From positions 5,084,001 to 5,148,000 of the forward strand of contig NZ_BBWW01000001.1 of the NCBI RefSeq assembly GCF_001485215.1: 64,000 bases of DNA, written 5' to 3'. Under the pieces are notes generated by a model, which was not told the DNA's origin, ran no database searches, and saw only the letters and a list, made by a program, of their open reading frames with translations. Both the position numbers and the translations under genes were made by a program. Within the stretch, counting starts at the first letter, position 1, and each line of letters begins with the position of its first letter. This document shows, piece by piece, positions 21,072 to 36,478 of this stretch. This stretch comes from Leptolyngbya sp. NIES-2104. GTDB taxonomy: Bacteria; Cyanobacteriota; Cyanobacteriia; Leptolyngbyales; Leptolyngbyaceae.

Positions 21072-21818
21072 ATGTCTTCACTCGGAAAGTTATTCGTCCC
21101 CGCTGCGCTTGCTGCTGGTACAGTCTTCTCAGCTTTCGCCATTCCTCTGTCACTCTATGGCTCACAGCCTTTATCCATTCAGTTCAAAGAAGAGCGCGTT
21201 TTTGAAGGACAACTCAGAGATATTGCTAACTCTTATCTAGCACTGGCTGGCATCTTAAGCTTAGGTGCAAGTTTTACGACTTGTGCCGCGATCGCTTGGA
21301 AATCCTCCGCTCATCAAGTCAAAGAAGCCGAAGATCAACGCTTCAAAATTGAGCAGCAACTCAAACAAAAAGAAGCTCAACTACAAGAAGCACTCATGTC
21401 TGATGCTTATCTTTCGGATTCTGGGCTGAGGTATTTTCTCGATGAAGACGCACCTCTCCATTCACCTACGCCCGTATCGGCTCAACCTGCACTGTCTCCG
21501 ATGCCGATCGCTTCTAAACCTGCTCCAGTTCCGACTCGGTTACAGACTGCCGCACCGCTTCACGCTGCTCAACCCTTTTTAGGATTTGCTCGTCCCGTCG
21601 CTCAACCGATTCCGATGAGCAATTCCGCTGTTGAGGGAGATGCGATCGCGAAAATGCAGCACCTCCAAACCCAGCTACAGCAAATCATGTCTGAGATTGA
21701 AACGATTCAATCAACTCTCCGCGTTGAACCTCCCTCGAATACAACCCAGACCACGCCGCTCAACCATCTTGCACAACGGTTCCAAGCCCTCGATCCAACT
21801 TGGACAGTACAAAGATAA
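21072..21818 (+). CDS. Membrane-anchored coiled-coil protein, function unknown
   Basis: A 248-residue protein that I do not recognise. Two hydrophobic segments lie at about residues 7-30 and 54-76, with an extended polar stretch between them. A heptad-rich region follows (KEAEDQRFKIEQQLKQKEAQLQ is roughly 83-104). Then comes a Pro/Ala-rich linker (about 125-190) and a second short helical stretch with MQHLQTQLQQIMSEIETIQ near residue 194. The arrangement suggests a protein anchored at the membrane with a cytoplasmic or periplasmic rod. The gene stands alone. Confidence 0.7.
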   Translation: MSSLGKLFVPAALAAGTVFSAFAIPLSLYGSQPLSIQFKEERVFEGQLRDIANSYLALAGILSLGASFTTCAAIAWKSSAHQVKEAEDQRFKIEQQLKQKEAQLQEALMSDAYLSDSGLRYFLDEDAPLHSPTPVSAQPALSPMPIASKPAPVPTRLQTAAPLHAAQPFLGFARPVAQPIPMSNSAVEGDAIAKMQHLQTQLQQIMSEIETIQSTLRVEPPSNTTQTTPLNHLAQRFQALDPTWTVQR

Positions 21819-21864: not shown

Positions 21865-22542
21865 TTATCTCATCCATGCTTGGGTGGGCAACTCAGCGTC
21901 GGTCTGTGATTTCGTCTCTTTCGTTTGATTGATCGATTGAACTGCGACTTTTACAACCGTTTGAGCAGGTTTTTCCGAAGCGATAATGTTTCCTCTGGGT
22001 AGCTCGATCGATAAAACCTGCTCGGCTTGTAGATAGCTTCTTCCATCCGCTGTGAACTGGATGCTAGTTCCCTGATTTCCCGTAGCAGTGGACTGTGATT
22101 GAATCCCGATCGAATTCTCTGTTGGTTCAGTCACCGCTAAGAATCGGACTTGTTTCTCCGGTTCAGATTTGAGATTCAGCGCTTTAGCAGTCTTTTGCCA
22201 AGCTTCTAATTTGTCTTGCTGCAAAAGATTGAGCGAGGTTTGCCATTTTCCTTGTTCGACCTTGACTTCTGTTTGCGCCAGAATCGAATAGGACTGCCCA
22301 GATTGAGAATTGGGCTGCAAATTTCGGATTGCTTGAATGGTCAATCGAGTTTGATTTGGCAAATTGCTACGACCTGTGACTTGGTAAATACCCGGATCAC
22401 GAGTGGATTCAACCTGCATCGAAAGTTCGGTTTTAGCAGTTTGGCTGTAGAAGGGAATGGCAGTACAGCCTGTACAAAAGACCAGAACTGCAATCAGTGT
22501 GCTACTGGCACAGAGTCGAAGAATTTTTTGGAAGCCTTTCAT
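21865..22542 (-). CDS. Putative lipoprotein, function unknown
   Basis: A 225-residue protein. The ATG at 22542 is preferred because it gives a proper signal (KGFQKILRLCASS, then a hydrophobic core ending LVFCTGC), with Cys near residue 26 as the lipidation site. The remainder is a beta-rich domain containing DPGIYQVTGRSNLP, a repeated QSGQSYSILAQTEV-type stretch and Thr-rich segments, ending in KAPAQTV-like polar sequence. No family is recognised. It is convergent with the membrane-anchored coiled-coil gene and divergent from the cellulose cluster. Confidence 0.75.
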   Translation of the reverse strand: MKGFQKILRLCASSTLIAVLVFCTGCTAIPFYSQTAKTELSMQVESTRDPGIYQVTGRSNLPNQTRLTIQAIRNLQPNSQSGQSYSILAQTEVKVEQGKWQTSLNLLQQDKLEAWQKTAKALNLKSEPEKQVRFLAVTEPTENSIGIQSQSTATGNQGTSIQFTADGRSYLQAEQVLSIELPRGNIIASEKPAQTVVKVAVQSINQTKETKSQTDAELPTQAWMR

Positions 22543-22913
22543 CGTGAATTCTCGTAAGGGATACGGTGAACGATCGCAAAGTGGGTCGCTCACATTAGTC
22601 ATTCCCTGACCAGCGAAAGCGGTTCACACCTGAATCCAGCGAGCTAGTTTCACGGCTGACATAAATAGATGTATCGTTTTTTACTAGTCAGGCTAAAAAT
22701 ATTAGTAGCCGAAAGATGAAGATTCAATTCGGGTTTTTGCGGGAACTCTAGGCACGATGATTGATTTCGGTCACAGCATCCGGGGTCAATTCCTGAGAAG
22801 CCTAATACTCTAGTAAAATTCACTGCCTCTAACTCAGTAATATTACTAACTTAGGTTCTATCTACTTTGTTCCTGGCACTTCAAGAGTGTCTATCGAGCC
22901 ATAACAGTGTGAT
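22543..22913. promoter_or_regulatory. Regulatory region of the cellulose cluster with 26-bp dyad
   Basis: The 371-bp gap separates the divergent lipoprotein gene and the cellulose cluster. The notable element is an imperfect 26-bp dyad at 22829-22854 with a perfect 12-bp core AGTAATATTACT and outer CTAA/TTAG arms (11 of 13 pairs match). It lies 60 bp upstream of the first ATG and is too AT-rich for a terminator, so a dimeric-regulator operator is plausible. No sigma-factor box is assigned. Confidence 0.45.
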
Positions 22914-24488
22914 ATGTCAGATATAACCCGGTTTGCCAAATTCAGTTCTCTTCTATCCTGTGTAGTGACCTCAGCGATCGCGGCTTTATTTGCAGGTCTG
23001 AATACGGGAAAACCCGCACAAGCGAATCCCTCAGACCAGAGCGCTGCAACTAAAATCGCTGCGGTGTCTCAACCGAACCTGCCTATTGAGCGATCGCAGC
23101 CCATGATTCAATCGGAAGCTGACCTCATCCAGCAGCTATCTGGGCAGGCAACATCCGTAAAACCCGTTACTTCTCAAACTCCGAGCTTTGCGCCACCGAC
23201 AGCAGCATCACCGATCGTGCTTCCATCTACTCAAGGTATTGAGCGATCTCCGTTAGTTGCATCTACTCTATCGGCAACGGATGTCAAAGTTGGAACTATT
23301 CCTGTTCAGCAGCGCTTTACGGCTCCGGTTTCTACGATCAGAGGTCTTCGTCCCGACGCGATGAAAGAATCATCCAGTTTTGAAGCTGCACCGACCGAAA
23401 TCGCGCTCAATGCCTCTCACAGTAAATCGGATCTGATGGCTCAATCCGGTCGTAATGCAGATTCACTCACTCGCGATCGCCCCTTTCTCCGCAGTACCGC
23501 GCTTACTCCGCCAAATCTTACTTTTCAGGGTGTTTACTTATATCAAGGCGATCAGACTTCAGCGCGGGCGAGATTATTTGGTGTCTATCCGCTCACTCCA
23601 AATGCACTAGTGGGTGCAACGCTTGATCTGACAACAGGTAGAGCTTTCACGGATACTCCAGACAATGGCTTCAATATCACGGAACTTTACTTCGCAACCT
23701 CGCCGCGTGACCTTCCGAATTTGCGATTTGTCGTCGGTCAGATTGATTTGACCTCGTACTTCGATCGCAATAGTTTCGCTAAAGATGGAGCAAGTCAGTT
23801 TTTTAATGCCGTTTTCCAGACCAACCCTGCTCTAAGCGCGACCGGAATTGCTTCACGACCAGGCGCATTGGTGAATTTCAGCCTCACTGACAACATTGAA
23901 GCAAAAGCAGCGGTGTTCTCATCTTCAAGAGGATTGGGTGATTTTGCTCTTGATGGATTTGCAGGTGAATTAGGGATTCGTTACGGCAACTTGATTGTCC
24001 GTGGAACCTATGCAACCGATCGCGATTCTGGCTCGGATAGCGGCTTCCAGGAGGTCTTTCAAGTCAGTCGAGGTGAAGGACAAACCGGATTACTTCGAGG
24101 CGATCGAGAACAAGCTTATGGCGTGAACGCTGAGTTATTCATCCCCAGCTTAAGAATGGGACTCTTCGGACGCTATGGACGCTATAACAATCTCGATTTA
24201 GGCGAAGGCGGGGACACATTCAGCGCTGGCATCACCTTCTTAGATTTGCTTACACGCGACGATCGCTTAGGGCTTGCCTACGGTCGTGCACTATCCAATG
24301 ACCAACTTCGGAGGCAAAGTGGTATCGACAATCCCGATGTCTTGGAATTGTTCTACGACTTCCGGTTATTGCCCAATCTGCGGGTTGGTTTCTCGATTCA
24401 AGAGCGCAATAACTTCTCCGAAACGATCGCGGGCGTTCGCGTGAAAACAGAATTCGATGTGACCCCCAGAAGCAGACAGACCCAGTGA
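22914..24488 (+). CDS. Outer-membrane beta-barrel protein of cellulose cluster (BcsC barrel-like)
   Basis: A 524-residue secreted protein. It has a signal peptide (about residues 1-38, ending near GKPAQA), a long Ser/Pro/Ala-rich disordered region to about residue 185, and then a beta-barrel-like C-terminus of alternating polar and aromatic strands: LTFQGVYLYQGDQ, ARLFGVYPLTPNALVGATLDL, AYGVNAELFIPSLRMGLFGRYG and FDVTPR. In proteobacterial cellulose operons the barrel is the C-terminal part of BcsC. Here it is its own gene, first in the cluster. The next start overlaps or closely follows its stop. Assignment to export rests on shape and on its neighbours. Confidence 0.75.
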   Translation: MSDITRFAKFSSLLSCVVTSAIAALFAGLNTGKPAQANPSDQSAATKIAAVSQPNLPIERSQPMIQSEADLIQQLSGQATSVKPVTSQTPSFAPPTAASPIVLPSTQGIERSPLVASTLSATDVKVGTIPVQQRFTAPVSTIRGLRPDAMKESSSFEAAPTEIALNASHSKSDLMAQSGRNADSLTRDRPFLRSTALTPPNLTFQGVYLYQGDQTSARARLFGVYPLTPNALVGATLDLTTGRAFTDTPDNGFNITELYFATSPRDLPNLRFVVGQIDLTSYFDRNSFAKDGASQFFNAVFQTNPALSATGIASRPGALVNFSLTDNIEAKAAVFSSSRGLGDFALDGFAGELGIRYGNLIVRGTYATDRDSGSDSGFQEVFQVSRGEGQTGLLRGDREQAYGVNAELFIPSLRMGLFGRYGRYNNLDLGEGGDTFSAGITFLDLLTRDDRLGLAYGRALSNDQLRRQSGIDNPDVLELFYDFRLLPNLRVGFSIQERNNFSETIAGVRVKTEFDVTPRSRQTQ

Positions 24489-24502
24489 TTTCTCTCGATC
24501 CC

Positions 24503-26845
24503 ATGAACACTCGCAAACACCCGGCTAACATGGTTCGCATAAAGCAACAGTTCACCCTCTCTCTGTGTCTCGGCTGGCTTCTCGTCGGGACTCCGCTGCT
24601 TACCGTTGCAGAGATGCAATCTGCGATCGCTCAATCTCAAACGATTCCTGCTGATGTACGGGAAGCTTATACGCTCCTTGGTAAAGGTTGGGTCGATGAT
24701 GCGATCGCAGCATTCAGGCAATCGATTCAACGGTATCCAGACTCGATCGAGGCAAAGTTAGGACTGGCGATTTCTTTTCGTCGAGCAGGGCGCGATGGTG
24801 ATGCCTGGCAAGCTTACCAACGGGTACTACAGCAAGATCCGAACAATCCATTAGCGCTGAAAACGATCGGTATCTTGGCTGGCTTTAAACCAGAGTGGCA
24901 AAAACAGGGGATTGAAGCACTCACAACGCTACTAAAGCTCAATAGCACAGACTCAGAAGCTCGTGCCCAACGCGCTTTATTGTATGGCTATCAAGGGCGG
25001 TTTTCTGAAGCTTTAGCAGACTACGAGATTGTTTTGCAAGCGAATCCAACACCAGAAGTGCTGTTAGGAGCCGCGCAAATTTACACGTATGCGGGTGATT
25101 CACAGAAAGGTCTAGAACTGTTTGAACGCTACCGATCGCGAACGAATACACCTATCACTGGAAATGCTGCGATCGCTTACGCTCGTGCTTTACGTACATT
25201 GGGAAATTCTACTCAAGCGATCGCACTTCTAGAAGGACAACTTCCAAGACAAATCAACGCTTTTGGGATTCAAGTACGATCAGAACTGTCGCAAGCTTAC
25301 TTAGCAAATCGCCAATCTACGCAAGCCTTAGCAGTCCTTGATCCATTACGCGATCGCCCTGATTCTCGTCTACCTCTAGCCCGCGCTTTGAATGAATTAG
25401 GTAGACAAGAGAATCGCCCCGAACTGGTTGCACAAGCTGGATCGCTCTACCGTCAAGTGCTCAATGAAACTGCAAATCCTTCTCCAGTTCTGCTACGAGA
25501 AATTGCAGATGTTCTAAGCGGAATTCCAAAAGAGCGTAAAACAGCCCTGCAACTTTATCGTCAACTAGCTCAACAACAACCTGAGAATCAAACATTAATC
25601 ATTCAGAAACTCGCTCTAGAAGCTCAACTCGGAACGCTAACAGAGAGTGAAATCCGTCAGCAACTCAGACCAATTCTGCAATCAATCCCGAATGAGCCAG
25701 CACAACAATTCGCGATCGCTCAAGCATTAGTTCGTCTAGAACCCGATCCCGAATTCCTCCCTGTCTATGAACGATTGATTCGGAGTGGAGTGAACGAACC
25801 ATTCTTAAATTTCCGTCTTGCTCAGCTTCTCATCGAACAGAACGAATTCGAGGCAGCAAAAGAAGCTTTAGCTCGATATCAATCAACTTCGGTAGGTTCA
25901 CGCGATCGCGCTTCTGAATTATTACTCGCAGAACTCGATCGCAAACAAGGCAACCTTGAATCTGCTGCAAAACGCTATGAAGCTCTAATTTCTGATGATG
26001 TGAGTGCTGATTTGAAATCGGGTGCAATTCGTTCTTTAGCCGGACTGAGACTCGCCCAAAATCGATTTGATGATGCACTGAAATTGTACGATCGCTTAAT
26101 CGCTGACAATCCTGAAGATCTACAGCTTCTACTCGGTCGTGCCGCAGTCGCTTATCAAGCTAAAAAAATCTCTGAAAGCGAAGCCGAAATGGTACTCGCT
26201 CGATTCCTGCAATCGCGACCATCCGAAACTCCGTCAGAACTCTACACGCTCGTTGGCATTCTACCGAGCGATTCAAGTCGTGAGCCATTGTACAACGCAC
26301 TGATTGAAGCTGACCCAACTAATGTTCCTGTCCAAGTTCGCTTGATTCAACTCCTCGCAAGCCGCGATCCGAGACAGGCTAGAGCACAAGCAAACCGACT
26401 CATGGCAAGAATTCGTCAAACCTCAACGGACGATCGCTCAAACGTCTCGCTGCTTTTCCTCAAAGCCCAACTCGAACAGACCCTTGGAAACTCCGATCGC
26501 GCCGAAGATGCGTATCAAGCCATCTTGAAAGTACAGCCAGAAAATCTAGATGCCCTTTCTGGTCTGGGTGGTGTGCGATTCCAGCAGCGTCAGTTTTCCT
26601 CTGCTTCTAGTCTATATTCTCAAATTCTAGAGCTTGATCCAGACAATCGAATTGCACTGCGATCGCTTGCTGAACTCTCAGCCGCTCAAGGTCAACCGCT
26701 CGCTGCATTAGATCAATTTGAACAACTCAAGATTCAACAAGTAGAGCAAGGAACATCAGACCCCGAACTAGAGCAACGTATCCAGAAAGTTCAAGAAGGA
26801 ATGTTGCAACAACGCGGGTTTCAACCTCCTTGGGAGCGCTATTAA
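24503..26845 (+). CDS. Periplasmic TPR protein of cellulose cluster (BcsC TPR-like)
   Basis: A 780-residue protein. From the ATG at 24503 it has a signal peptide (hydrophobic LSLCLGWLLVGTPLL, cleavage near AIAQS). A GTG at 24485 and an ATG at 24530 are alternatives. The rest is a near-continuous array of tetratricopeptide-type helical pairs, for example AREAYTLLGKGWVDDAI-like, AWQAYQRVLQQDPNNPLAL, AYQAILKVQPENLDALSGLG and LYSQILELDPDNRIALRSL. There is no barrel at the C-terminus. This corresponds to the N-terminal TPR part of BcsC, which guides nascent glucan across the periplasm. The gene order (barrel first, TPR second) is the reverse of the domain order in BcsC. Confidence 0.85.
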   Translation: MNTRKHPANMVRIKQQFTLSLCLGWLLVGTPLLTVAEMQSAIAQSQTIPADVREAYTLLGKGWVDDAIAAFRQSIQRYPDSIEAKLGLAISFRRAGRDGDAWQAYQRVLQQDPNNPLALKTIGILAGFKPEWQKQGIEALTTLLKLNSTDSEARAQRALLYGYQGRFSEALADYEIVLQANPTPEVLLGAAQIYTYAGDSQKGLELFERYRSRTNTPITGNAAIAYARALRTLGNSTQAIALLEGQLPRQINAFGIQVRSELSQAYLANRQSTQALAVLDPLRDRPDSRLPLARALNELGRQENRPELVAQAGSLYRQVLNETANPSPVLLREIADVLSGIPKERKTALQLYRQLAQQQPENQTLIIQKLALEAQLGTLTESEIRQQLRPILQSIPNEPAQQFAIAQALVRLEPDPEFLPVYERLIRSGVNEPFLNFRLAQLLIEQNEFEAAKEALARYQSTSVGSRDRASELLLAELDRKQGNLESAAKRYEALISDDVSADLKSGAIRSLAGLRLAQNRFDDALKLYDRLIADNPEDLQLLLGRAAVAYQAKKISESEAEMVLARFLQSRPSETPSELYTLVGILPSDSSREPLYNALIEADPTNVPVQVRLIQLLASRDPRQARAQANRLMARIRQTSTDDRSNVSLLFLKAQLEQTLGNSDRAEDAYQAILKVQPENLDALSGLGGVRFQQRQFSSASSLYSQILELDPDNRIALRSLAELSAAQGQPLAALDQFEQLKIQQVEQGTSDPELEQRIQKVQEGMLQQRGFQPPWERY

Positions 26846-26862
26846 CTTTGGTGGTGATCAAT

Positions 26863-28089
26863 ATGTTGCGCTTGCTTGTACCACTGACAATTGCTGGATG
26901 TATTGGACTCGGAGGATTAGTTTCCTGTGCGGCTCCACCTCAACGCTCGACTTTTGTAGCAAGTGTTGAGACAGCCGATCACAGTTCATTACTAGCTGAA
27001 AGTTGGACAGCTTATCGCAAGCGGTTCATTCAAGCCGATGGGCGCGTGATCGATTGGGAAGCAAATGGACGATCGACTTCCGAAGGTCAAGCCTATGCAA
27101 TGTTACGAGCGGTCATGGTAAATGATCCTGAAACATTCGCGATCGCGCTTCGATGGGCAGAAACGAACTTACAGCGACGAGACAAAGCCAACCAGCCGAT
27201 TGATTCTCTGTGGTCATGGAAATGGGGACAGAATGCGAATGGTAGCTGGGGCATTCTTGATGCAAATGTTGCTAGTGATGCTGATATTGATGCGATTACT
27301 GCGTTAATTTTGGCATCGAGACGGTGGCAGCGTCCCGATTATCTCAAGCTTGCGCGTACCAAGTTAAAAGATCTGTGGACACACGCGACCATCACATTGC
27401 CCGTCGATGGAAAACGGTATTTACTGCCGGGAGCGATCGCGCTTTTTCAACGAAACGAGAAGCTCAAAGCGAATCCATCGTACCTTGCCCCTTATGCCTT
27501 TCGCCTCTTTGCCCAAGTGGATTCAGAGCGCGATTGGCTCAGTCTCGTAGACAGTAGCTATCAGATGTTAGAGCAATCCTCGAAAGTCTCACCTGTGGAC
27601 TTACCGAGCGATTGGATTGCCGTTGATCCAAACACCGGAGCGTATACCGCGCTTGATTCAGGCAGTCCACTGATTACCCAATATGGATTCGATGCCAGCC
27701 GAGTTTGGTGGCGGGTGGCGCTTGATGCCGCTTGGTTTGGAGAACCGAGAGCCAAAGCCTATCTCCAGGCAAATCTTGGTTATCTCAAACAGATGTGGCA
27801 ACGCGATCGCAAAATTCCCGCCAAGCTCGATTTGCAAGGTCGTCCGCTCGTGGACTATGAAGCCACCTCACAATACGGAATGTTGTACGCTGCTTTCCGC
27901 GTGATCGATCCTGCGATCGCACAGGAAATTCTCACTCAAAAGCTATTGCCCTCCTACCGAAATGGATTCTGGGATAACGATTCCGCTTACTACTCTCAGA
28001 ATCTCGCCTGGTTTGGTCTGCTCCCTCCAAACCATCTAGCAACTTACCTCACTGAACCTACTCAAGCCGCAAACGTATCCCTTCCATGA
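26863..28089 (+). CDS. bcsZ: Cellulase BcsZ, glycoside hydrolase family 8 lipoprotein
   Basis: BcsZ is the endo-1,4-beta-glucanase of cellulose operons. From the ATG at 26863 (a TTG at 26830 is also in frame) the product has 408 residues and a lipoprotein signal ending LVSC, so it is probably membrane-anchored. GH8 features are RVIDWEANGRSTSEGQAYAM (Glu74 as likely general acid), WSWKWGQNANGSWGILDANVA, and SDADIDAITALILASRRW (Asp139/Asp141 region). Membrane anchoring is unusual since many BcsZ are soluble periplasmic. The stop overlaps the bcsB start by four bases. Confidence 0.92.
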   Translation: MLRLLVPLTIAGCIGLGGLVSCAAPPQRSTFVASVETADHSSLLAESWTAYRKRFIQADGRVIDWEANGRSTSEGQAYAMLRAVMVNDPETFAIALRWAETNLQRRDKANQPIDSLWSWKWGQNANGSWGILDANVASDADIDAITALILASRRWQRPDYLKLARTKLKDLWTHATITLPVDGKRYLLPGAIALFQRNEKLKANPSYLAPYAFRLFAQVDSERDWLSLVDSSYQMLEQSSKVSPVDLPSDWIAVDPNTGAYTALDSGSPLITQYGFDASRVWWRVALDAAWFGEPRAKAYLQANLGYLKQMWQRDRKIPAKLDLQGRPLVDYEATSQYGMLYAAFRVIDPAIAQEILTQKLLPSYRNGFWDNDSAYYSQNLAWFGLLPPNHLATYLTEPTQAANVSLP

Positions 28090-30581
28090 ATAAACGGTTT
28101 TCAGATCAATCTTCTCATCCACGTCGAGGCTCTAAAACAATGCTGACACGTACTTTAGTCTTATGTTGTGCTGGATTAGTAACCGGACTCGCGATCGTGC
28201 TGCTTCATGCCCAACACCCGATCGCAGTTTCCGCTCAAGGCATTCAAAAGCAAGAAGATCAGCTCATTCGAGACTTCAAGCTACCGAGCACTCCTGCCGA
28301 AGCGCCGATTTACCGCCCACAAGCGCCAGTGTATCAGCCAGAACCTGAACCAGCAACCGTCGAAGCAGTGAGCGAACCGAGTGTCGCTCCCGTTGAACCT
28401 GTTGCCTCAGAAGCACCCACACCGCAACCTGAGAAGAAAGCTGAGATATCCAAACCTCAGAACGCTGCACCTATGAGTCAGTATGTTCTGCAATTTAATC
28501 GGAGTCCAGCGATCGGAAACCGTTTCCGCCTACAAGGAACATACGCAGAAGCGCGCATCGGCTTCACCCGCCCGAAAAATTGGAATGTGAAATCTGCTAA
28601 AGCAGTGATTCGATTCCAGCATTCTCCAGCAATCATCTCCGACAAATCTAATCTGATTGTTCGGGTGAATGATACGAGCATTGGCAGTGTTCCGATGAAC
28701 CTGAAAAATGCTCAGATTGGAGAAGCGATCGTCAATATTCCAGCAAATCTTGTTCAGGACTATAACGAGATTACGATCGTGGCTCAGCAGACGAATTCTG
28801 CAACCTGCGCGAATCCGGACGATAAAGTGCTGTGGTCAGAAGTGCTGCCTGATTCAAAAGTAATTCTTGACTATCAACCCCAGTCACTGGCTCTTGATTT
28901 CAGCCGCTACCCGTTCCCGTTCTTTGACAATCTTGGGTTAGATACGCCTCGTCTAAACTATCTTTTGCCTGCTCAAATTAATGAGGCTTGGTTAACGGCA
29001 ACCAGTCGTTTTCACACGCATTTCGGACGGTTGGCTGACTTTCGATCGCTCGAAACCAGCCTGGTAAAAGATACGAAAAAATTCGAGTGGAACGATCGCT
29101 TAGTCATCATTGGAACGCCTCAAGATCAGCCAACACTCAAATCGCTGAAGTTACCTCTGAACATTGCGAACAATCAAATCTTGGATGGTAGCAAAAATGC
29201 ACTTCCTGAGAATGTTGGTGTGCTGATGCTGACAACTCTAAACAATGGCAATGTTCCAGTGATTGTTGCTTCTGGAAACGGAGCGGAAGGCGTTGCAAAA
29301 GCGGTTCAGTTTCTAGTTCAACCGAACAGCAGTCAGATTGGCTCTGGACAAGTGGTTTTAGTGCGTGATGTGGCTGAAGTTGCGTCACCCAATTCACGTA
29401 GTTGGGAGCGCTATCTTCCACTTCAAGACTCATTCCAACTCAGCGCTTTGAAGGGATTGGACAACAAACCTTTCAAAGATGTGACTGTACGTGGAACTTC
29501 TGCACCTCCTGTACAGTTTCAATTCCGATCGATGCCTGACGATCGAATGCTGCGGGGCAGCTCAATGAATTTGAAATACAGCTATAGCGCTCAGGTCAAT
29601 TCTCGGAAATCATCGGTTTCTGTCCGAATTGATGGGGTCACGATCGGGAGCAAAAAACTGACTTCAGAAAATGGCGGAAACAATGAATTGCTTAACGTTG
29701 ATCTGCCACCGAACCTAATTAAGTCGGATTCTGTGATTGATGTCGCTTTCGATTTGTATCCAAGAGAAACCGTCAAATGTGGTCAAGTCGGTGATCAACA
29801 GCTTTGGGGAACGGTTCACAGCACAACTGATTTCAACTTGAAGCGTGAGAATTCAGTTGAACTACCAGATCTGAAGCTTTTGACGACAGGTTATCCATTT
29901 GCTGCACCTCAAGACTTGTCAAAGACCGCGATCGTCGTTCCTGATTCTCCGACTGAAGCAGATGTGATGACCGTTCTGAAGTTCAGCGAACGGATGGGAC
30001 GACTCAGCCAAGCTAACTCAGTCAAACTTGATGTATTTACGGCATCGAATTTACCTGAAACTGTGAAGAACGATCGTCATTTGGTTGCAATTGGAGTGCG
30101 CGATCGTTTTCCAATCAAAGAAATGCTCGAAGCGAATTCTGGATTCCGCATCATGGACGCTTTCGCACGGGAATCCGGCAAAGATCAGATTCATGCTTTA
30201 CCGGATCAAGGTGGCGTGATCAAGAGTATGCTGTCACCTTGGAACCGCGATCGCACTATGGTTGCTTTGACTGCTCAAACCGACTCAGGACTTAAACAGG
30301 TGCAAGATGTTCTGAGCAATGATCTTTGGTTCTATCAACTGAAAGAAGACACCGCACTGATTAGCACCAATCAAGTGAATCCATCACCCTATGATTCCAA
30401 TGCTTATCAGATGCAGTTTCTCAATCAATCAGAGCGGCGGCGAATTGAAAATACGACTGCTCTGAGCAAAGCGAGACAGCTCTTGCAAGAACAGTGGTAT
30501 CTTCTTCCGATCGGCATTATTGCAAGTTCCCTCTTGTTGTACGGAATTGCTCAGATCCTCCTCAAGCGCGTTGCAGGGTAA
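28086..30581 (+). CDS. bcsB: Cellulose synthase regulatory subunit BcsB
   Basis: BcsB is the periplasmic partner of BcsA that guides the glucan and is required for synthesis. The 831-residue product has an N-terminal signal/anchor (about residues 20-40), a Pro/Glu-rich linker to about 135, and two repeats of a jelly-roll plus ferredoxin-like arrangement (for example RLQGTYAEARIGFTRPKNW, DYNEITIVAQ, then RSMPDDRMLRGSSMNLKYSY). A single C-terminal helix (LLPIGIIASSLLLYGIAQILL) is the anchor that docks onto BcsA. It begins inside the bcsZ stop (ATGA) and ends six bases before bcsA, so the three are tightly coupled. Confidence 0.93.
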   Translation: MNKRFSDQSSHPRRGSKTMLTRTLVLCCAGLVTGLAIVLLHAQHPIAVSAQGIQKQEDQLIRDFKLPSTPAEAPIYRPQAPVYQPEPEPATVEAVSEPSVAPVEPVASEAPTPQPEKKAEISKPQNAAPMSQYVLQFNRSPAIGNRFRLQGTYAEARIGFTRPKNWNVKSAKAVIRFQHSPAIISDKSNLIVRVNDTSIGSVPMNLKNAQIGEAIVNIPANLVQDYNEITIVAQQTNSATCANPDDKVLWSEVLPDSKVILDYQPQSLALDFSRYPFPFFDNLGLDTPRLNYLLPAQINEAWLTATSRFHTHFGRLADFRSLETSLVKDTKKFEWNDRLVIIGTPQDQPTLKSLKLPLNIANNQILDGSKNALPENVGVLMLTTLNNGNVPVIVASGNGAEGVAKAVQFLVQPNSSQIGSGQVVLVRDVAEVASPNSRSWERYLPLQDSFQLSALKGLDNKPFKDVTVRGTSAPPVQFQFRSMPDDRMLRGSSMNLKYSYSAQVNSRKSSVSVRIDGVTIGSKKLTSENGGNNELLNVDLPPNLIKSDSVIDVAFDLYPRETVKCGQVGDQQLWGTVHSTTDFNLKRENSVELPDLKLLTTGYPFAAPQDLSKTAIVVPDSPTEADVMTVLKFSERMGRLSQANSVKLDVFTASNLPETVKNDRHLVAIGVRDRFPIKEMLEANSGFRIMDAFARESGKDQIHALPDQGGVIKSMLSPWNRDRTMVALTAQTDSGLKQVQDVLSNDLWFYQLKEDTALISTNQVNPSPYDSNAYQMQFLNQSERRRIENTTALSKARQLLQEQWYLLPIGIIASSLLLYGIAQILLKRVAG

Positions 30582-30587
30582 ATCGTT

Positions 30588-33143
30588 ATGACAAATTCAA
30601 CTCCTTCAAAACGGTATCGGAGCAAAGGACAGCGGGTTTTAGCTTGGTTTGTCGATTTGATTCCGAATTTCTTCGATCGACTTTTCCAAAAAAACAGCCC
30701 TTCTCAGCTTGTTGTGCTTATGGGCTTACTTTTAGTTCTGTCTGTCCCTCTGATTGTGACCCCGCTCGAAATTTGGCAGCAGGGAATTGTGGCTGTGATT
30801 TTAGTCGGTTTGGGTTGGGCAGTCACAGATATCGAACACAAGCACGCAAAAGGACAAACCAGCGAGTATCTGCACCTGTTCATGGTATGGCTGAGTTTGA
30901 TTACAACTTTTCGGTATCTGTACTATCGAACAAACTACACTCTAAATCTCACCAGCGGATGGCTTGATGCAACTTGTAGCGTTTTGCTGTTTTTAGCAGA
31001 ACTCTACGCGATCCTGACATTAGCGCTGGCGTTCTTTCAAACTTTGAAGCTAAAAGAGCGGAAGGCGGTTGATCTCTCAACTGTTCCTGAGCATCAGTGG
31101 TTTAAGGTTGATATCTACATTCCAACTTACAGCGAGGATGTTGAGATTGTTCGCAAGACAGCACTCGGAGCATTAGCGATCGACTATCCCGCCGACAAAA
31201 AGAAAGTGCACATTCTCGATGATGGTCGAGCCGAAAAGTTTCGAGAGAGACGGGAACAGTTGCGGCAGATGTGCAAAGAACTCGGCTGCACGTTGCTGAC
31301 TCGTGATAACAATGATCACGCAAAAGCTGGGAACATCAATACGGCGCTACGTCGAACAGGTGGCGACCTGGTTCTAATTCTCGACTGTGATCATATTCCG
31401 GTTCGTCATTTTCTCAAAGATACCGTTGGATTTTTCTACAGTCCTAAAGTCTCGCTCGTTCAAACCCCGCACTGGTTCTACAACCCTGATCCGTTTGAGC
31501 GGAACTTGCAAACAGGCGGTAAGATTCCGGTCGGAAATGAGCTGTTCTACAAAGTACTACAGAAAGGAAATGACTTCTGGAACGCTGCTTTCTTCTGTGG
31601 TTCTGCGGCGGTTGTGAGAAAGTCACACTTGCTAGAAGTAGGCGGCATTGCAGTTGAAACCGTGACTGAAGATTGTCATACTTCACTGCGCTTGCATTCT
31701 TTGGGGTATGAGTCGGTTTACTATGACAAGATCATGGTGGCGGGACTGGCTCCAGAAAAGTTCTCAGCTTATGTGGGTCAACAGATTCGCTGGGCGCGGG
31801 GAATGGCGCAAATTCTTCGACTTGAAAATCCGTTATTGAATCCGAAGCTGAAATTGTCGATCGGGCAACGAATCTGCTATTTCAGTGCAACTTCTCACTT
31901 CTTCTACGGATTCCCGCGATTGATGTATGCGCTGGCTCCCGCGATGTTTCTCGTCTTTGGAATTAATCCAATTCGAGGTTTGGGACTGGAAACTCTAGCG
32001 TATGCGCTTCCTCACTTTTTTGTCTCAACCTACGCCAACTACATCACGTACAAGAACGTTCGCTTCTCTTTCTGGAATGAGATTTACGAATTTGCAATGT
32101 CGTTTCACGCTGGAATTGTGACAATGTTGGCGGTGTTTAATCCGAAGCTAGGAAGCTTTAACGTAACCGATAAAGGTTTGTCTGTCACTAAGCGAAGCTT
32201 TGACTGGGGATCAGCAAAAGCGTTGATGATTGTGGCGCTGTTAGTTACGGCTGGAGTTGCCGCAGTCCCGTTCTGGTTGATTCTGCGACCTCAAGACTCA
32301 GAAGCTGTGTTAGTGAACATGGTTTGGAGTTTCTTTAACTTGATTCTGATTGTGTCTGCGTTATTGGTTGCACTGGAACAACCGCAGTTAAGACGATCGC
32401 ATCGTCTCGATCGTAAATTGTCCGCAACGCTCTACACAAATGGTGCAGTCGTTCAAGGTCGCACCCAGAATGTGAGTGAAACAGGTTGTCAATTAATCGT
32501 TGATCACTGGGCGGATTTTCTCGAAGATGCTGAAATTGAATTGATTGGGGATTACGGCGCGAGAGCGTTTGTTAAAGGGCAAATTATTCGCGTCGTTCCA
32601 GTGCATGAAACGCAATCCTTGTTATCGATCGAGTTTGTTGATTTGACTCGTGCTCAACTGGATGCGCTCAGCGTCGTGATTTATTCCGATGTGCGTGAGT
32701 GGTATTCGCAGCAACGGGAAAACGTTGATGATCCGCTGCAATCTTTCAGGTTTATTGTGGGCAGTTTGACTCGATCGTTTAAGCAACGCAAGCCTGAAGC
32801 GACCAACATCGCGAGAGTTCGTAAAGAAATTCGCGCTCATGCTCAGTTGTATTGGCGGGGGCAGTTTTACTCAGGGGTAGCAACTCGGATTAGTAACCGT
32901 AGTCTGCAATTAGAGATTCAATCAGATGCGATCGAAGATGTGAGGCTTCTGAGCTACTATCAACCGCTAGTCGGTGTTCTCTTGAGCCAAACTGCTGATG
33001 AATCTTTGCCGAATCGATTGTTAGCGAAAGTTGAGCAGATTGATTTTATGGACGATCGGACAGTGATTGAGTTACGCTTCCCGGATCAAATCATGCAGCG
33101 ACAGGAAGACAAAATTAAACAGCTTGTCGATACCTTGAATTAA
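30588..33143 (+). CDS. bcsA: Cellulose synthase catalytic subunit BcsA (GT2, PilZ)
   Basis: BcsA polymerises UDP-glucose into beta-1,4-glucan and extrudes it through its own membrane channel. The 851-residue product shows all catalytic elements: Asp211-Asp212 (DDG), Asp266-Cys-Asp268 (DCDHIP), Thr360-Glu-Asp (TED), Gln398-x-x-Arg401-Trp402, and the gating loop FNVTDKG at 524-530. A PilZ domain with RRSHR at 602-606 and NVSETG at 628-633 is the c-di-GMP site that releases the gating loop in known BcsA. A second C-terminal segment (RKEIR at 745-749) looks like a further PilZ-like fold. The product is longer than many BcsA because of this extension. Confidence 0.97.
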   Translation: MTNSTPSKRYRSKGQRVLAWFVDLIPNFFDRLFQKNSPSQLVVLMGLLLVLSVPLIVTPLEIWQQGIVAVILVGLGWAVTDIEHKHAKGQTSEYLHLFMVWLSLITTFRYLYYRTNYTLNLTSGWLDATCSVLLFLAELYAILTLALAFFQTLKLKERKAVDLSTVPEHQWFKVDIYIPTYSEDVEIVRKTALGALAIDYPADKKKVHILDDGRAEKFRERREQLRQMCKELGCTLLTRDNNDHAKAGNINTALRRTGGDLVLILDCDHIPVRHFLKDTVGFFYSPKVSLVQTPHWFYNPDPFERNLQTGGKIPVGNELFYKVLQKGNDFWNAAFFCGSAAVVRKSHLLEVGGIAVETVTEDCHTSLRLHSLGYESVYYDKIMVAGLAPEKFSAYVGQQIRWARGMAQILRLENPLLNPKLKLSIGQRICYFSATSHFFYGFPRLMYALAPAMFLVFGINPIRGLGLETLAYALPHFFVSTYANYITYKNVRFSFWNEIYEFAMSFHAGIVTMLAVFNPKLGSFNVTDKGLSVTKRSFDWGSAKALMIVALLVTAGVAAVPFWLILRPQDSEAVLVNMVWSFFNLILIVSALLVALEQPQLRRSHRLDRKLSATLYTNGAVVQGRTQNVSETGCQLIVDHWADFLEDAEIELIGDYGARAFVKGQIIRVVPVHETQSLLSIEFVDLTRAQLDALSVVIYSDVREWYSQQRENVDDPLQSFRFIVGSLTRSFKQRKPEATNIARVRKEIRAHAQLYWRGQFYSGVATRISNRSLQLEIQSDAIEDVRLLSYYQPLVGVLLSQTADESLPNRLLAKVEQIDFMDDRTVIELRFPDQIMQRQEDKIKQLVDTLN

Positions 33144-33151
33144 AAGCTTAC

Positions 33152-33188
33152 AAAAAGACCTTGATTGAATACCAATCAAGGTCTTTTT
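33152..33188. terminator. Bidirectional terminator between bcsA and ABC permease gene
   Basis: A perfect 16-bp inverted repeat (AAAAAGACCTTGATTG at 33152-33167, complement at 33173-33188) with a 5-base loop. It has an A-run on one side and TTTTTTT on the other, so it can end both the cellulose cluster and the minus-strand sugar importer. Confidence 0.9.
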
Positions 33189-33192
33189 TTGT

Positions 33193-34428
33193 TTATTTCC
33201 CGCGTACTGGATTCGCTCGACGAACTATGGCATCTGCGGTGACAGCAAGAACGAGAACGGCTCCTTGAACAATGTTTTTGATGCTCTGATCTTGATTGAG
33301 CAAATCAAGTCCGTTGTCCAAACTTCCGATGACTAATGCGCCAAGGATAACTGCCCAAATCGAGCCACGACCGCCAAATAAGCTAACACCCCCGATGACC
33401 GCAGCCGCGATCGCATTTAGTAACAAAGTTGCACTGATCTGAGTCGCAACCGCTGTACTGCGTGAGGTCAACATAATTCCTGCCACTGCCGCTAAAGTGG
33501 ATGCCAGAGTAAACACTGCCATTTTCATCGCAGTGACATTAATTCCAGCGCGTCTTGCGGCTTCTTCATTTCCACCGACTGCATACAAGTGACGACCAAA
33601 CGGCGTTTTGCGTAGAATCAGCCAGAATGCAAGAACGATTCCCAGCGAAATCATCACCGCTTGAGGCACACCTTGATAGGTCTGGAACAGGAACACAATC
33701 AGGAAGATACCTGCGAAAATTCCTGAAATTTGGGCAATCAAGGTGGTTGGGCGTTTTACTGGAAGTCCGGCTTTGACACGGCGTTGACGTTCGTACCAAA
33801 CCCCGATCGCATAAAGAGCAGCAACCACGATCGGTAATCCCCAACCCATGATCGGACTTAAATAAGTTGGAGCCAGAGCGCGAATTGCTGGATCACGAAC
33901 AATCAGCGTCGTTTGCCGTCCGAGTACCAAGAGCAAAAATCCGGCATACCCGATCGAGCCTGCCAACGTCACAATGAACGATGGAACCCGCAAGATAGCA
34001 ATGAAAAATCCGTTGATCAAACCAATGACTGCACCTGTGACAAGTGCTGCCAGAATCGAGGGAACTGCACCCCAGTTCTGATACACCGAAACCGTTGCCA
34101 TGACTGCGGCACAGGCTTGTGCAACTGCGGCTAAACTTAGATCGATTTCACCGAGTAACAGAACCAATACAGCCGCAGTACTGAGAATGCTAATGACAAC
34201 GATTTGCTGGGTGAGGTTGGTTAAGTTTCTGGCTTGGAGGAAAACACCGCTGGTTGTTAGCTGAAAGTACAGCGTGATTAATGCAAGGGTGATGATGACC
34301 GGGATAAATCCTAAGTCGCCTCGCATTAAAGAGCGTAAGTTAAAGGATGCTTTCGTAATGTTTGACTTTGGATCGCTCATCTCGGCATTAACGGCTGAGC
34401 GATCGTCTTCTTTCGTGTTGGTTTTCAT
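33193..34428 (-). CDS. Xylose-type ABC transporter permease
   Basis: A 411-residue permease of the ribose/xylose (CUT2) type with about ten hydrophobic segments. FILTLAGSIGYAGFL-like helices, a GLINGFFIAILRVPSFIVTLAGS stretch near residue 135 and GRHLYAVGGNEEAARRAGINV near residue 278 (the ATPase-contact loop) are typical. The last three helices carry a conserved AVIGGVSLFGGRGS motif. It is the third gene of the set binding protein, ATPase, permease; its start overlaps the ATPase stop by four bases (33193-34428 and 34425-35252). Confidence 0.93.
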   Translation of the reverse strand: MKTNTKEDDRSAVNAEMSDPKSNITKASFNLRSLMRGDLGFIPVIITLALITLYFQLTTSGVFLQARNLTNLTQQIVVISILSTAAVLVLLLGEIDLSLAAVAQACAAVMATVSVYQNWGAVPSILAALVTGAVIGLINGFFIAILRVPSFIVTLAGSIGYAGFLLLVLGRQTTLIVRDPAIRALAPTYLSPIMGWGLPIVVAALYAIGVWYERQRRVKAGLPVKRPTTLIAQISGIFAGIFLIVFLFQTYQGVPQAVMISLGIVLAFWLILRKTPFGRHLYAVGGNEEAARRAGINVTAMKMAVFTLASTLAAVAGIMLTSRSTAVATQISATLLLNAIAAAVIGGVSLFGGRGSIWAVILGALVIGSLDNGLDLLNQDQSIKNIVQGAVLVLAVTADAIVRRANPVRGK

Positions 34429-35252
34429 ACGAGATCTGGGGAAGAAATGGCAGGATCGCGGTATTCTGCGCCAGTGATGGCAGCGACGACTTGTTCTGAA
34501 GTGGAATTTTTGATGTCAAACGTAGCGGAGCGTTGACCGAGACGCATGACGACTGCGCGATCGCATACATCAAATACATCGTGCAAATTATGAGAGATGA
34601 CGACCACACCCAGACCTTGCTGTTTTAATCGCAGGATCAGGTTCAGAACTTGCCGAGTTTGAGCAACACCGAGCGCGGCAGTCGGTTCATCGAGCAGGAC
34701 GACTTTCGGCTGACGGAGAATCGTTTTTGCGACCGCAATACATTGGCGTTGTCCACCGGAAAGCGTGGCAACTGGACGACGAACCGAAGGGATTTTGACC
34801 TCAAGGGTTCTTAAAACCTCGATCGTGCGGCGTTCCATCTCAGTTTCGTCGAGGGCTTTTAGAAAACCAGGAATCACCCAACGGTAGGCTTCTCGACCTA
34901 ACCAGAGATTTGCAACTACGTCTAAGTTGTCACAGAGGGCTAGGTCTTGATACACCGTTTCGATGCCAAGACGAGTGGCATCTTGGGGCGATGAAATTGT
35001 GACAGGTGCGCCATCAATCAGAATTTCGCCAGAGTCAGGAACGTAAGCCCCGGACATCGTTTTGACGAGCGTTGATTTTCCGGCTCCGTTGTCACCGACC
35101 AGACCCACAACTTCGCCCGCATAGACTTCAAAATCAACATTTTTTAGTGCTTGAACACCACCGAATGACTTGTTAATGCTGCGGAGTTGTAGACGGGGAA
35201 TAGAGCGATCGACAGAGGTTTCGCTTTGAGTCGGTAAAACTGAATTGTTCAT
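34425..35252 (-). CDS. Sugar ABC transporter ATPase, single nucleotide-binding domain
   Basis: A 275-residue ATPase. Walker A is GDNGAGKSTLVK near residue 57, the signature motif LSGGQRQ lies near residue 164, and Walker B is VVLLDEPTAAL near residue 184. Sequence resembles XylG/RbsA-type ATPases, but those have two NBDs in tandem (about 500 residues), while this has one. Single-NBD versions exist in fructose-type (Frc) importers and would act as a homodimer. It begins with a short polar leader (NNSVLPTQSETSVDRSIP). It lies 47 bases after the binding-protein gene. Confidence 0.92.
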   Translation of the reverse strand: MNNSVLPTQSETSVDRSIPRLQLRSINKSFGGVQALKNVDFEVYAGEVVGLVGDNGAGKSTLVKTMSGAYVPDSGEILIDGAPVTISSPQDATRLGIETVYQDLALCDNLDVVANLWLGREAYRWVIPGFLKALDETEMERRTIEVLRTLEVKIPSVRRPVATLSGGQRQCIAVAKTILRQPKVVLLDEPTAALGVAQTRQVLNLILRLKQQGLGVVVISHNLHDVFDVCDRAVVMRLGQRSATFDIKNSTSEQVVAAITGAEYRDPAISSPDLV

Positions 35253-35299
35253 AATTACTGTGCTGATAGCGGGGTGATGGTGAGATCACCCCAGTTTCA

Positions 35300-36478
35300 T
35301 TAGCCGCGACAGATACCCGTCGTGTCGCCTGTGAGTCCATTACAGACTTGTTCTCGCTTCAGGTAGCCATCGGCTAGAACCGTCTGTTGAATGTTGGTTT
35401 TATCGACTGCGATCGGGGTAATTAACGCGGAGGCAACTTGTCCCCCAGATTTCAGAGCCGTTTGACCGTTGACGAGGTTGCCGGGAGTCGTACCGTTACT
35501 CAAAGCCGCGACTAATTCTGCGGTGGCTTGGGCTTCTTTTGCGATCGGCTTGTAAATCGTCATGGACTGATCGCCCGTGAGAATGTTCTGGATTCCCGTT
35601 AGGGTGGCATCTTGCCCAGTCACCAGAATTTTGCCATCGAGTTTTTGCGTTCTCAACGCAGCAATCACGGTGTTTGCCATGCCATCGTTTGCAACATAAG
35701 CGGCTTGCACATTATTTTTCTGCTGCGTCAAGATGCCTTCCATGATCGATTGTGCTCTGCCGTTGTCCCAGTTTGGGGTGTACTGGTCAAACACGAGATT
35801 CAACTGTTTGCTATCCACTAAAGGCTGCAATGCTTTCAATGCACCTTCTCTAAATTGCAGGGCGTTGTTATCGGTTTGAGAACCGTTGATCATGACTAAG
35901 TTTGCACCCGGTTTTAAACCGTACGCACCTTTCTTGAATTGATCCGCGATGTATTGTCCTTGAAGTTCGCCAACTCGGACGTTATCAAATGAAACATAGT
36001 AAGCGACATCAGGATCTTGAATTAAGCGATCGTAGGCAATCACTGGAACTTGACTTGCCTTAGCTTTTTGTACAATAACCGATGCTTTATCACTATCTTT
36101 TGGGTCAACTACGAGAATGCAGGCACCTTTCGTTAGGGCTGCATCGGCTTGGTTTTGTTGAGTGTCGGCATCGTTATTCGCGTTGGCGTATTGAATCGTT
36201 GCGTCAGGAATTCGAGCTTTGATTTCCTTTTCTAGAAGTGGTCGATCGTAGGCTTCGTAGCGAGCGGATGAATCGGATTCAGGCAAGAGAATGCCAATGT
36301 TTTTACAACCTTTTGCGGCGGCAAATCGGGTGTCTGCGTTTGTTGCAGTCGGATTATTCGCAGCGTTTGGATCATTGGCAGTGGGGTTTGCACCGTTATT
36401 TTGATTGCTACAGGCGGCAAACACCACCACGCTCATGAGTGGCAAGAATTTGAAAGTTAGATTTATAAAACGGTTCAT
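35300..36478 (-). CDS. Sugar ABC transporter substrate-binding lipoprotein (XylF-like)
   Basis: The 392-residue product is a periplasmic-binding-protein-like domain with a lipoprotein signal (hydrophobic KFLPLMSVVVFAAC, Cys near residue 23), then an Asn/Ala-rich linker. The core begins CKNIGILLPESDSSARYEAYD and has VPVIAYDRLI, YYVSFDNVRVGELQG and VTGQDATLTGIQNILTG, all characteristic of the D-xylose/multiple-sugar branch. The true sugar is not provable from sequence. It is the first gene of the minus-strand importer, with its promoter in the 489-bp gap upstream. Confidence 0.92.
   Translation of the reverse strand: MNRFINLTFKFLPLMSVVVFAACSNQNNGANPTANDPNAANNPTATNADTRFAAAKGCKNIGILLPESDSSARYEAYDRPLLEKEIKARIPDATIQYANANNDADTQQNQADAALTKGACILVVDPKDSDKASVIVQKAKASQVPVIAYDRLIQDPDVAYYVSFDNVRVGELQGQYIADQFKKGAYGLKPGANLVMINGSQTDNNALQFREGALKALQPLVDSKQLNLVFDQYTPNWDNGRAQSIMEGILTQQKNNVQAAYVANDGMANTVIAALRTQKLDGKILVTGQDATLTGIQNILTGDQSMTIYKPIAKEAQATAELVAALSNGTTPGNLVNGQTALKSGGQVASALITPIAVDKTNIQQTVLADGYLKREQVCNGLTGDTTGICRG

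Follow-up and report, generated by a model that had tools for sequence, protein, structure and literature searches.

A cyanobacterial cellulose cluster in which an OprB-type porin and a free-standing TPR protein probably divide the work of BcsC

A cluster of cellulose genes in Leptolyngbya sp. NIES-2104 is probably a cyanobacterial BcsAB-type operon for cellulose synthesis and export, with an outer-membrane channel (OMB) and a separate TPR scaffold together doing what BcsC does elsewhere. The cluster lies in a window of 64,000 nucleotides (contig NZ_BBWW01000001.1, positions 5,084,001-5,148,000, + strand), which is the whole stretch of DNA analysed; coordinates below are positions within this window. 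Five open reading frames (ORFs) on the + strand, in the order OMB, TPR, BcsZ, BcsB and BcsA, occupy 22914-33143. The preliminary description of this DNA had listed these genes as running without large gaps, and indeed OMB, TPR and BcsZ each overlap the next gene by a few bases, while BcsA starts after a gap of 6 bases past BcsB.

The barrel gene precedes the TPR gene, the reverse of the order of these parts in BcsC, and the two ORFs, which overlap by 4 bases, are in different reading frames; the mechanically chosen start of the TPR gene sits in the GTGA that overlaps the OMB stop. Both N-termini resemble signal peptides by eye. The earlier view that these are two separate proteins and not a frameshifted BcsC is borne out. 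OMB through BcsA look like a single transcription unit, since the genes overlap or lie close together and a terminator-like stem of 16 pairs plus a T run (33152..33188, + strand) starts eight bases after the bcsA stop. Over the scan as a whole, terminator-like sites are fewer (7) than in shuffled sequences (mean 12.1), promoter-like sites are also fewer than in the shuffles, and an Rfam scan of the window gave no match.

OMB (22914..24488, + strand) is a 524-aa protein whose barrel, by sequence and predicted structure, is a porin of the OprB kind and not a BcsC barrel cut loose. Its relatives were sought in one genome each for 84,980 species; 186 were confirmed and the best 80 of these 186 were used, all of them titled cyanobacteria. 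The Pfam OprB model (PF04966) matches OMB itself partially, over residues 268-496 (6.3e-07; 29.6 bits, cut-off 22.9). At E 0.1, this model matches 35 of 72 OMB members, BCSC_C (PF05420) none of the 72, and SLH likewise none. A hidden Markov model (HMM) trained on 13 OprB proteins from this Leptolyngbya genome matches all 72 members at E 1e-4 or better, the controls giving 1.8 at best for shuffled copies, 7.0 for reversed copies and 0.19 to 2.5 for four proteobacterial BcsC barrels. Profile comparison gives OMB 91.7% with OprB, over 98 columns only, versus 1.9% with BcsC; 8 porins went into the OprB profile and 4 barrels into that of BcsC. The 13 proteins are those that match OprB in this genome besides OMB, and SLH is present in 9 of the 10 of them that were scanned.

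The predicted fold points the same way. An AlphaFold2 model computed from the 72-sequence alignment shows the beta-barrel expected from the preliminary description, with 16 strands at residues 201-515, where the predicted local distance difference test (pLDDT) score is mostly above 90. A Foldseek search with this model placed OprB second by E-value, behind Omp-Pst1 and ahead of other general porins. In a second structural alignment (VIA) the best row was P. putida OprB 4gey (Z 27.4, root mean square deviation 2.8, 296 aligned), the next row having 23.7. BcsC does not appear among the rows listed in the fold searches with the OMB or TPR model, which excludes nothing, and a PDB sequence-profile search with OMB gave no match at E 1. 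The earlier note had spoken of a BcsC split into two proteins. That wording should be dropped: the barrel groups with OprB, and the outer-membrane pore looks replaced rather than detached from BcsC.

The TPR protein (24485..26845, + strand; 786 aa) is predicted to be a periplasmic TPR solenoid without a barrel. It matches many TPR models, and its AlphaFold2 model (24509-26845) has a mean pLDDT of 90 and about 20 helix pairs by hand count; no barrel follows the solenoid at the C-terminus. Alignment with BcsC by hhalign gives 98.8%, and the NCBIfam BcsC model matches at 5.5e-09 but falls far short of its cut-off; higher scores go to other TPR families, the repeats match generically, and a fold search with the model returned generic TPR proteins. 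A candidate contact site is the C-terminal tail R-G-F-Q-P-x-W-E (26813..26836, + strand). In the 778-residue numbering, R769, G770, Q772, P773 and W775 are invariant in 71 of 71 sequences, and F771 and E776 are present in 90% or more. Beyond this motif the end varies, RGFQPxWERY standing near it in 25 of the 71.

The order of the genes is conserved in related loci. Counting only those of the 80 OMB loci with enough flanking DNA, and on the same strand downstream of OMB, TPR is found in 76/77, BcsZ in 63/68, BcsB in 67/68 and BcsA in 66/67. Where a related locus shows both OMB and TPR, they are again encoded by separate ORFs, and the 4-base stop-start overlap between them recurs in 45 of 76 loci, start codons being chosen mechanically in these counts. 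A single locus (L136) is behind both the BcsB and the BcsA miss; provided that G386 contig C1 belongs to the same chromosome, a BcsB match stands about 1.5 kb past the end of this locus. Genes broken into two ORFs (TPR in L063, L083 and L091; BcsB in L119) were counted as present. When 20 loci were anchored on BcsB instead, 15 had OMB directly before TPR, 3 were ended by a contig edge and 2 (L049 and L043) had no OMB.

Co-occurrence was examined in 386 genomes of the phylum Cyanobacteriota, searched with OMB, BcsB, LIPO, COIL (the last two being upstream genes described below) and BCSC_C. BcsB was strong (>300 bits) in 17 genomes and weaker in 5 more; OMB was strong (>580 bits) in 16, while 10 further genomes reached at most 34.4 bits, besides extra weak matches in genomes already counted. 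All 16 genomes with strong OMB are among the 17 with strong BcsB, the seventeenth is the distant G343, and there is no reverse case (Fisher p 2e-27, uncorrected for kinship). The linkage of the pair to bcsA and bcsB in other cyanobacteria, a point on which the earlier proposal depended, holds. Chance neighbourhood was rejected as an explanation, gene order and co-occurrence with bcsB/bcsA being far beyond it. The 16 genomes fall, as labelled, in seven families, and G185, a congener of G289, has no match to BcsB, OMB, LIPO or COIL; this fits a cluster gained or lost as a whole. BCSC_C has no match in the Leptolyngbya sp. NIES-2104 genome; among the 386 genomes it matches in 8, in 2 of them over the cut-off, but never at an OMB cluster. 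The cluster is therefore one without a BcsC-type pore.

The cluster is also larger than five genes. The preliminary description was right about the five and missed two others upstream, LIPO and COIL. LIPO (21865..22602, - strand) is a divergent, predicted lipoprotein of 245 aa and of no known family. Of the 68 loci with enough upstream sequence, 64 have it, all upstream copies being on the - strand at a median of 214 bases from OMB. The genomes with a strong LIPO match are exactly the 16 OMB genomes, and 4 more give weak matches. A lipobox-like site, by a looser rule, is present in 33 of 33 LIPO sequences; the 33 members have no Pfam match, a PDB profile search gave none, and NCBIfam gave weak matches only. 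COIL (21072..21818, + strand) has 248 aa and shows, by eye, two hydrophobic segments, a coiled coil and a Pro-rich tail; Pfam gives scattered coiled-coil-type matches only. Of the 68 loci with enough upstream sequence, 52 have it. Strong COIL matches mark the 16 OMB genomes once more; outside this count are G286, with a broken copy, and 2 genomes with weak matches. Two of the 16, G174 and G011, have kept COIL although its best match lies more than 100 kb away from any BcsB, so that the co-occurrence of COIL is not only a matter of neighbourhood. The next two genes further upstream of COIL are found at 1/80 and 1/80 loci.

The analysis shows which genes are present, their order, conservation and co-occurrence, the kinship of the barrel with OprB and the predicted folds. 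The mechanism that we infer from this, including how TPR docks on OMB, which way the glucan travels and what LIPO, COIL and the lipid anchors do, would run as follows. BcsA, sensing cyclic di-GMP through its PilZ domain, would make the glucan and, with BcsB, move it over the inner membrane. The TPR solenoid, about as long as that of BcsC, would reach from BcsB through the periplasm to near the outer membrane, where OMB, a 16-strand OprB-type porin without SLH, would serve as the channel for the cellulose chain. TPR may dock on OMB via its invariant C-terminal tail and/or via short motifs of the disordered tail of OMB. BcsZ, a predicted lipoprotein, would trim or clear stray glucan at a membrane face, LIPO might help to place or gate OMB, and COIL might act at the inner membrane and cytoplasm. 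We lean, by a little, towards considering the seven co-inherited genes (COIL, LIPO, OMB, TPR, BcsZ, BcsB and BcsA) a distinct system, in which a porin of the sugar-uptake OprB type, lacking its SLH domain and bearing a disordered docking tail, became a dedicated polysaccharide export channel working with a free-standing TPR scaffold of BcsC length and with lipoproteins.

Several observations weigh against an export channel of this kind. The OprB family takes its name from the uptake of carbohydrates, and OMB may have an uptake role. The Pfam OprB model misses 37 of the 72 OMB members at E 0.1. One locus (L049, in G011) has TPR-BcsB-BcsA without OMB and BcsZ, in a genome that has a complete second cluster, and the distant G343 has two BcsB genes with neither OMB nor TPR nearby. 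Over 60 loci, OMB distances correlate with those of BcsA (partial 0.43) and hardly with those of TPR (partial 0.07), so there is no specific OMB-TPR signal in these distances.

The first of these points leads to an alternative in which OMB is an uptake porin that returns the cello-oligosaccharides released by BcsZ to the periplasm or passes small sugars, the cellulose chain leaving elsewhere, for instance through TolC. It agrees with OprB being both the carbohydrate-selective porin family and the closest solved fold, and the TolC route is a published, unproven model for another cyanobacterial cellulose system (PMC12430437). However, OMB heads the operon, often with a stop-start overlap with TPR, and none of the 369 genomes without strong BcsB has a strong OMB, which would be odd for a general sugar porin when the genome also encodes 13 other OprB-matching proteins. 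We regard this alternative as unlikely.

The part of OMB that precedes the barrel bears on another alternative. Residues 30-195 (23001..23498, + strand) are rich in Ser, Ala, Pro, Thr and Gln and have pLDDT below 50 at 30-66 and 77-195, so that most of this stretch is presumably disordered, as had been suspected. This tail takes the place of the SLH domain found in most OprB porins of the genome, and its length is highly variable: the region before the barrel, signal peptide counted, ranges from 150 to 902 residues (median 305.5) in the 72 members. Two motifs recur in it, E..[FLI]I[QR][QE] in 36/72 and PTF.Q.L in 34/72, counts that express conservation and not significance because the shuffles disregard common descent; a STAL motif showed no enrichment (1/72). 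Such a long tail resembles a tether, and OMB could be a structural outer-membrane anchor of TPR in place of an SLH anchor, cellulose staying in the wall or leaving otherwise. For instance, the cellulose of Synechococcus sp. PCC 7002 is described as sitting between the plasma and outer membranes (PMC12430437). But conservation is far higher in the barrel than in the tail. Its most conserved stretch, TSYFDRNSFxKD, is nearly invariant in 72 sequences and lies in loop 279-313 (23748..23852, + strand), between strands 270-278 and 314-323, which by analogy with other porins is the probable lumen (constriction) loop. Anchoring alone would need no invariant barrel loop, and a purely structural role is improbable.

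A true split, with OMB as a diverged BcsC barrel separated from its TPR part, is very improbable indeed: both barrels have 16 strands (PMC11379886 for BcsC) and TPR is of BcsC-like length, but the separate frames, the lack of any BCSC_C match against 35 OprB matches, the profile comparison and the controlled OprB HMM led us to reject it along with a frameshifted BcsC. We return to a divided export path with OMB as its probable pore. The new element would be a different outer-membrane pore, apparently recruited, within the known scheme of synthase-dependent cellulose secretion.

One of the closest known systems is BcsC of the proteobacterial types I and II, which, like the present pair, offers a long periplasmic TPR solenoid and a 16-strand barrel alongside bcsA, bcsB and bcsZ (PMC11379886, PMC11470070). 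E. coli BcsC is described as having 19 TPR followed by the 16-strand barrel, the first repeat binding BcsB (PMC11379886). Unlike BcsC, the cyanobacterial parts are two polypeptides with the barrel gene first, and the barrel is related to OprB without a BCSC_C match; the disordered tail, the extra LIPO and COIL genes and the lipoprotein-like BcsZ are further differences from BcsC systems.

AlgE, the porin of alginate export, belongs to another barrel family than OMB. AlgK and AlgE are, like TPR and OMB, separate TPR and porin products, thought to form a complex (PMC9734138). However, AlgK is a lipoprotein, whereas a lipobox-like site is found in only 1 of 73 TPR sequences; the TPR protein is hence not an AlgK-like lipoprotein, and its solenoid is of BcsC length.

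Type III bcs operons with BcsK also have a TPR protein without a barrel beside bcsA, bcsB and bcsZ, and BcsK often replaces BcsC in them (PMC6559018, PMC11470070). In the passages of these sources that deal with it, BcsK is described as a periplasmic scaffold only, thought to do the work of BcsC, and no separate pore gene is named, while here a barrel gene precedes TPR. The present cluster may hint that the pore of BcsK-type systems should be sought among general porins rather than among relatives of BcsC.

The XcsA-XcsB-TolC system, the cyanobacterial type IV, resembles the present cluster in having a synthase with PilZ and in its proposed trans-envelope export, and differs in having an HlyD-like protein and no bcsB according to its description (PMC12430437). 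The Leptolyngbya cluster has bcsB, bcsZ, a TPR protein and an OprB-type barrel, and no HlyD is among the matches listed for the seven genes scanned (for TPR, the best 25 rows), which sets it apart from Xcs. Cyanobacterial OprB porins bearing SLH share barrel fold and sequence with OMB; OMB, however, has no SLH and is tightly linked to bcs genes.

The loss of BcsC in some alphaproteobacteria has been taken as a hint of a novel export mechanism (PMC7112194). A 2015 survey found, in the part that concerns cyanobacteria, BcsC_C in none of those it covered and BcsB in few, and followed up neither (PMC4594306). In the relevant section of a 2025 review, the cyanobacterial cellulose secretion route is called poorly defined, type IV operons are given as lacking bcsB, and a TolC model, itself unproven, is the only one offered (PMC12430437). 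The open-access literature searched yielded no account of a bcs cluster in which a TPR protein is paired with an OprB-type barrel. The present cluster supplies a testable candidate for cyanobacterial cellulose export, with a specific channel, a scaffold and two uncharacterised helpers.

The three remaining genes make this a BcsAB-type cellulose synthase cluster, having a TIGR03030 BcsA with PilZ beside BcsB and a BcsZ of glycoside hydrolase family 8. BcsZ (26830..28089, + strand; 419 aa) is an endoglucanase of this family (PF01270, 6.9e-43) and looks like a lipoprotein in the cyanobacterial cluster: under the same rule, a lipobox-like site is present in 65/67 BcsZ of the related loci versus 1/74 for OMB, 1/73 for TPR and 4/68 for BcsB, and in 0/2 proteobacterial BcsZ. 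BcsB (28086..30581, + strand) has 831 aa and matches PF03170 at 1.3e-96. BcsA (30588..33143, + strand; 851 aa), a cellulose synthase with a PilZ domain, scores 702.3 bits with TIGR03030 (cut-off 699.1), the only match above the cut-off in the genome. It retains DDG, DxD, TED and QxxRW, which we take as the catalytic motifs, and RxxxR and NxSxxG, which we take as those of PilZ. The match to TIGR03030 ends at residue 733; 118 residues follow it (32787-33143), without a Pfam match in the scan.

Some related loci depart from the usual arrangement. In Tolypothrix campylonemoides a 453-aa ORF, which by eye resembles IscB/RRXRR proteins, stands between OMB and TPR (L115:11204-12565). In an assembly of Nostoc indistinguendum (L099:9401-15642) TPR runs at its start into an ORF resembling BcsB, and BcsA is broken in two, so that this is probably a decayed cluster. 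G286 also looks like one: it has a BcsB fragment with a weak LIPO fragment five bases away, the broken COIL elsewhere and no OMB match. In G343 two BcsB-like genes are adjacent (L043:7695-12436), with no BcsA, TPR or OMB match in the 20 kb examined. A search of plasmid records gave a match in Allocoleopsis and a short TPR match in Azospirillum; on plasmid pMIC7113.02 of Allocoleopsis franciscana (L159:1570-16380), OMB and TPR are still paired even though they are divergent from BcsB and a family 2 glycosyltransferase, which speaks for the two acting together.

Downstream of the cluster, the neighbouring gene (33193-34428), by eye that of a permease, is found near 2 of 80 loci, most loci ending within about 1-2 kb of BcsA. 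It is the first of three genes at 33193-36478, convergent with bcsA, which appear by eye to encode the permease, ATPase and binding protein of a sugar ATP-binding cassette transporter.

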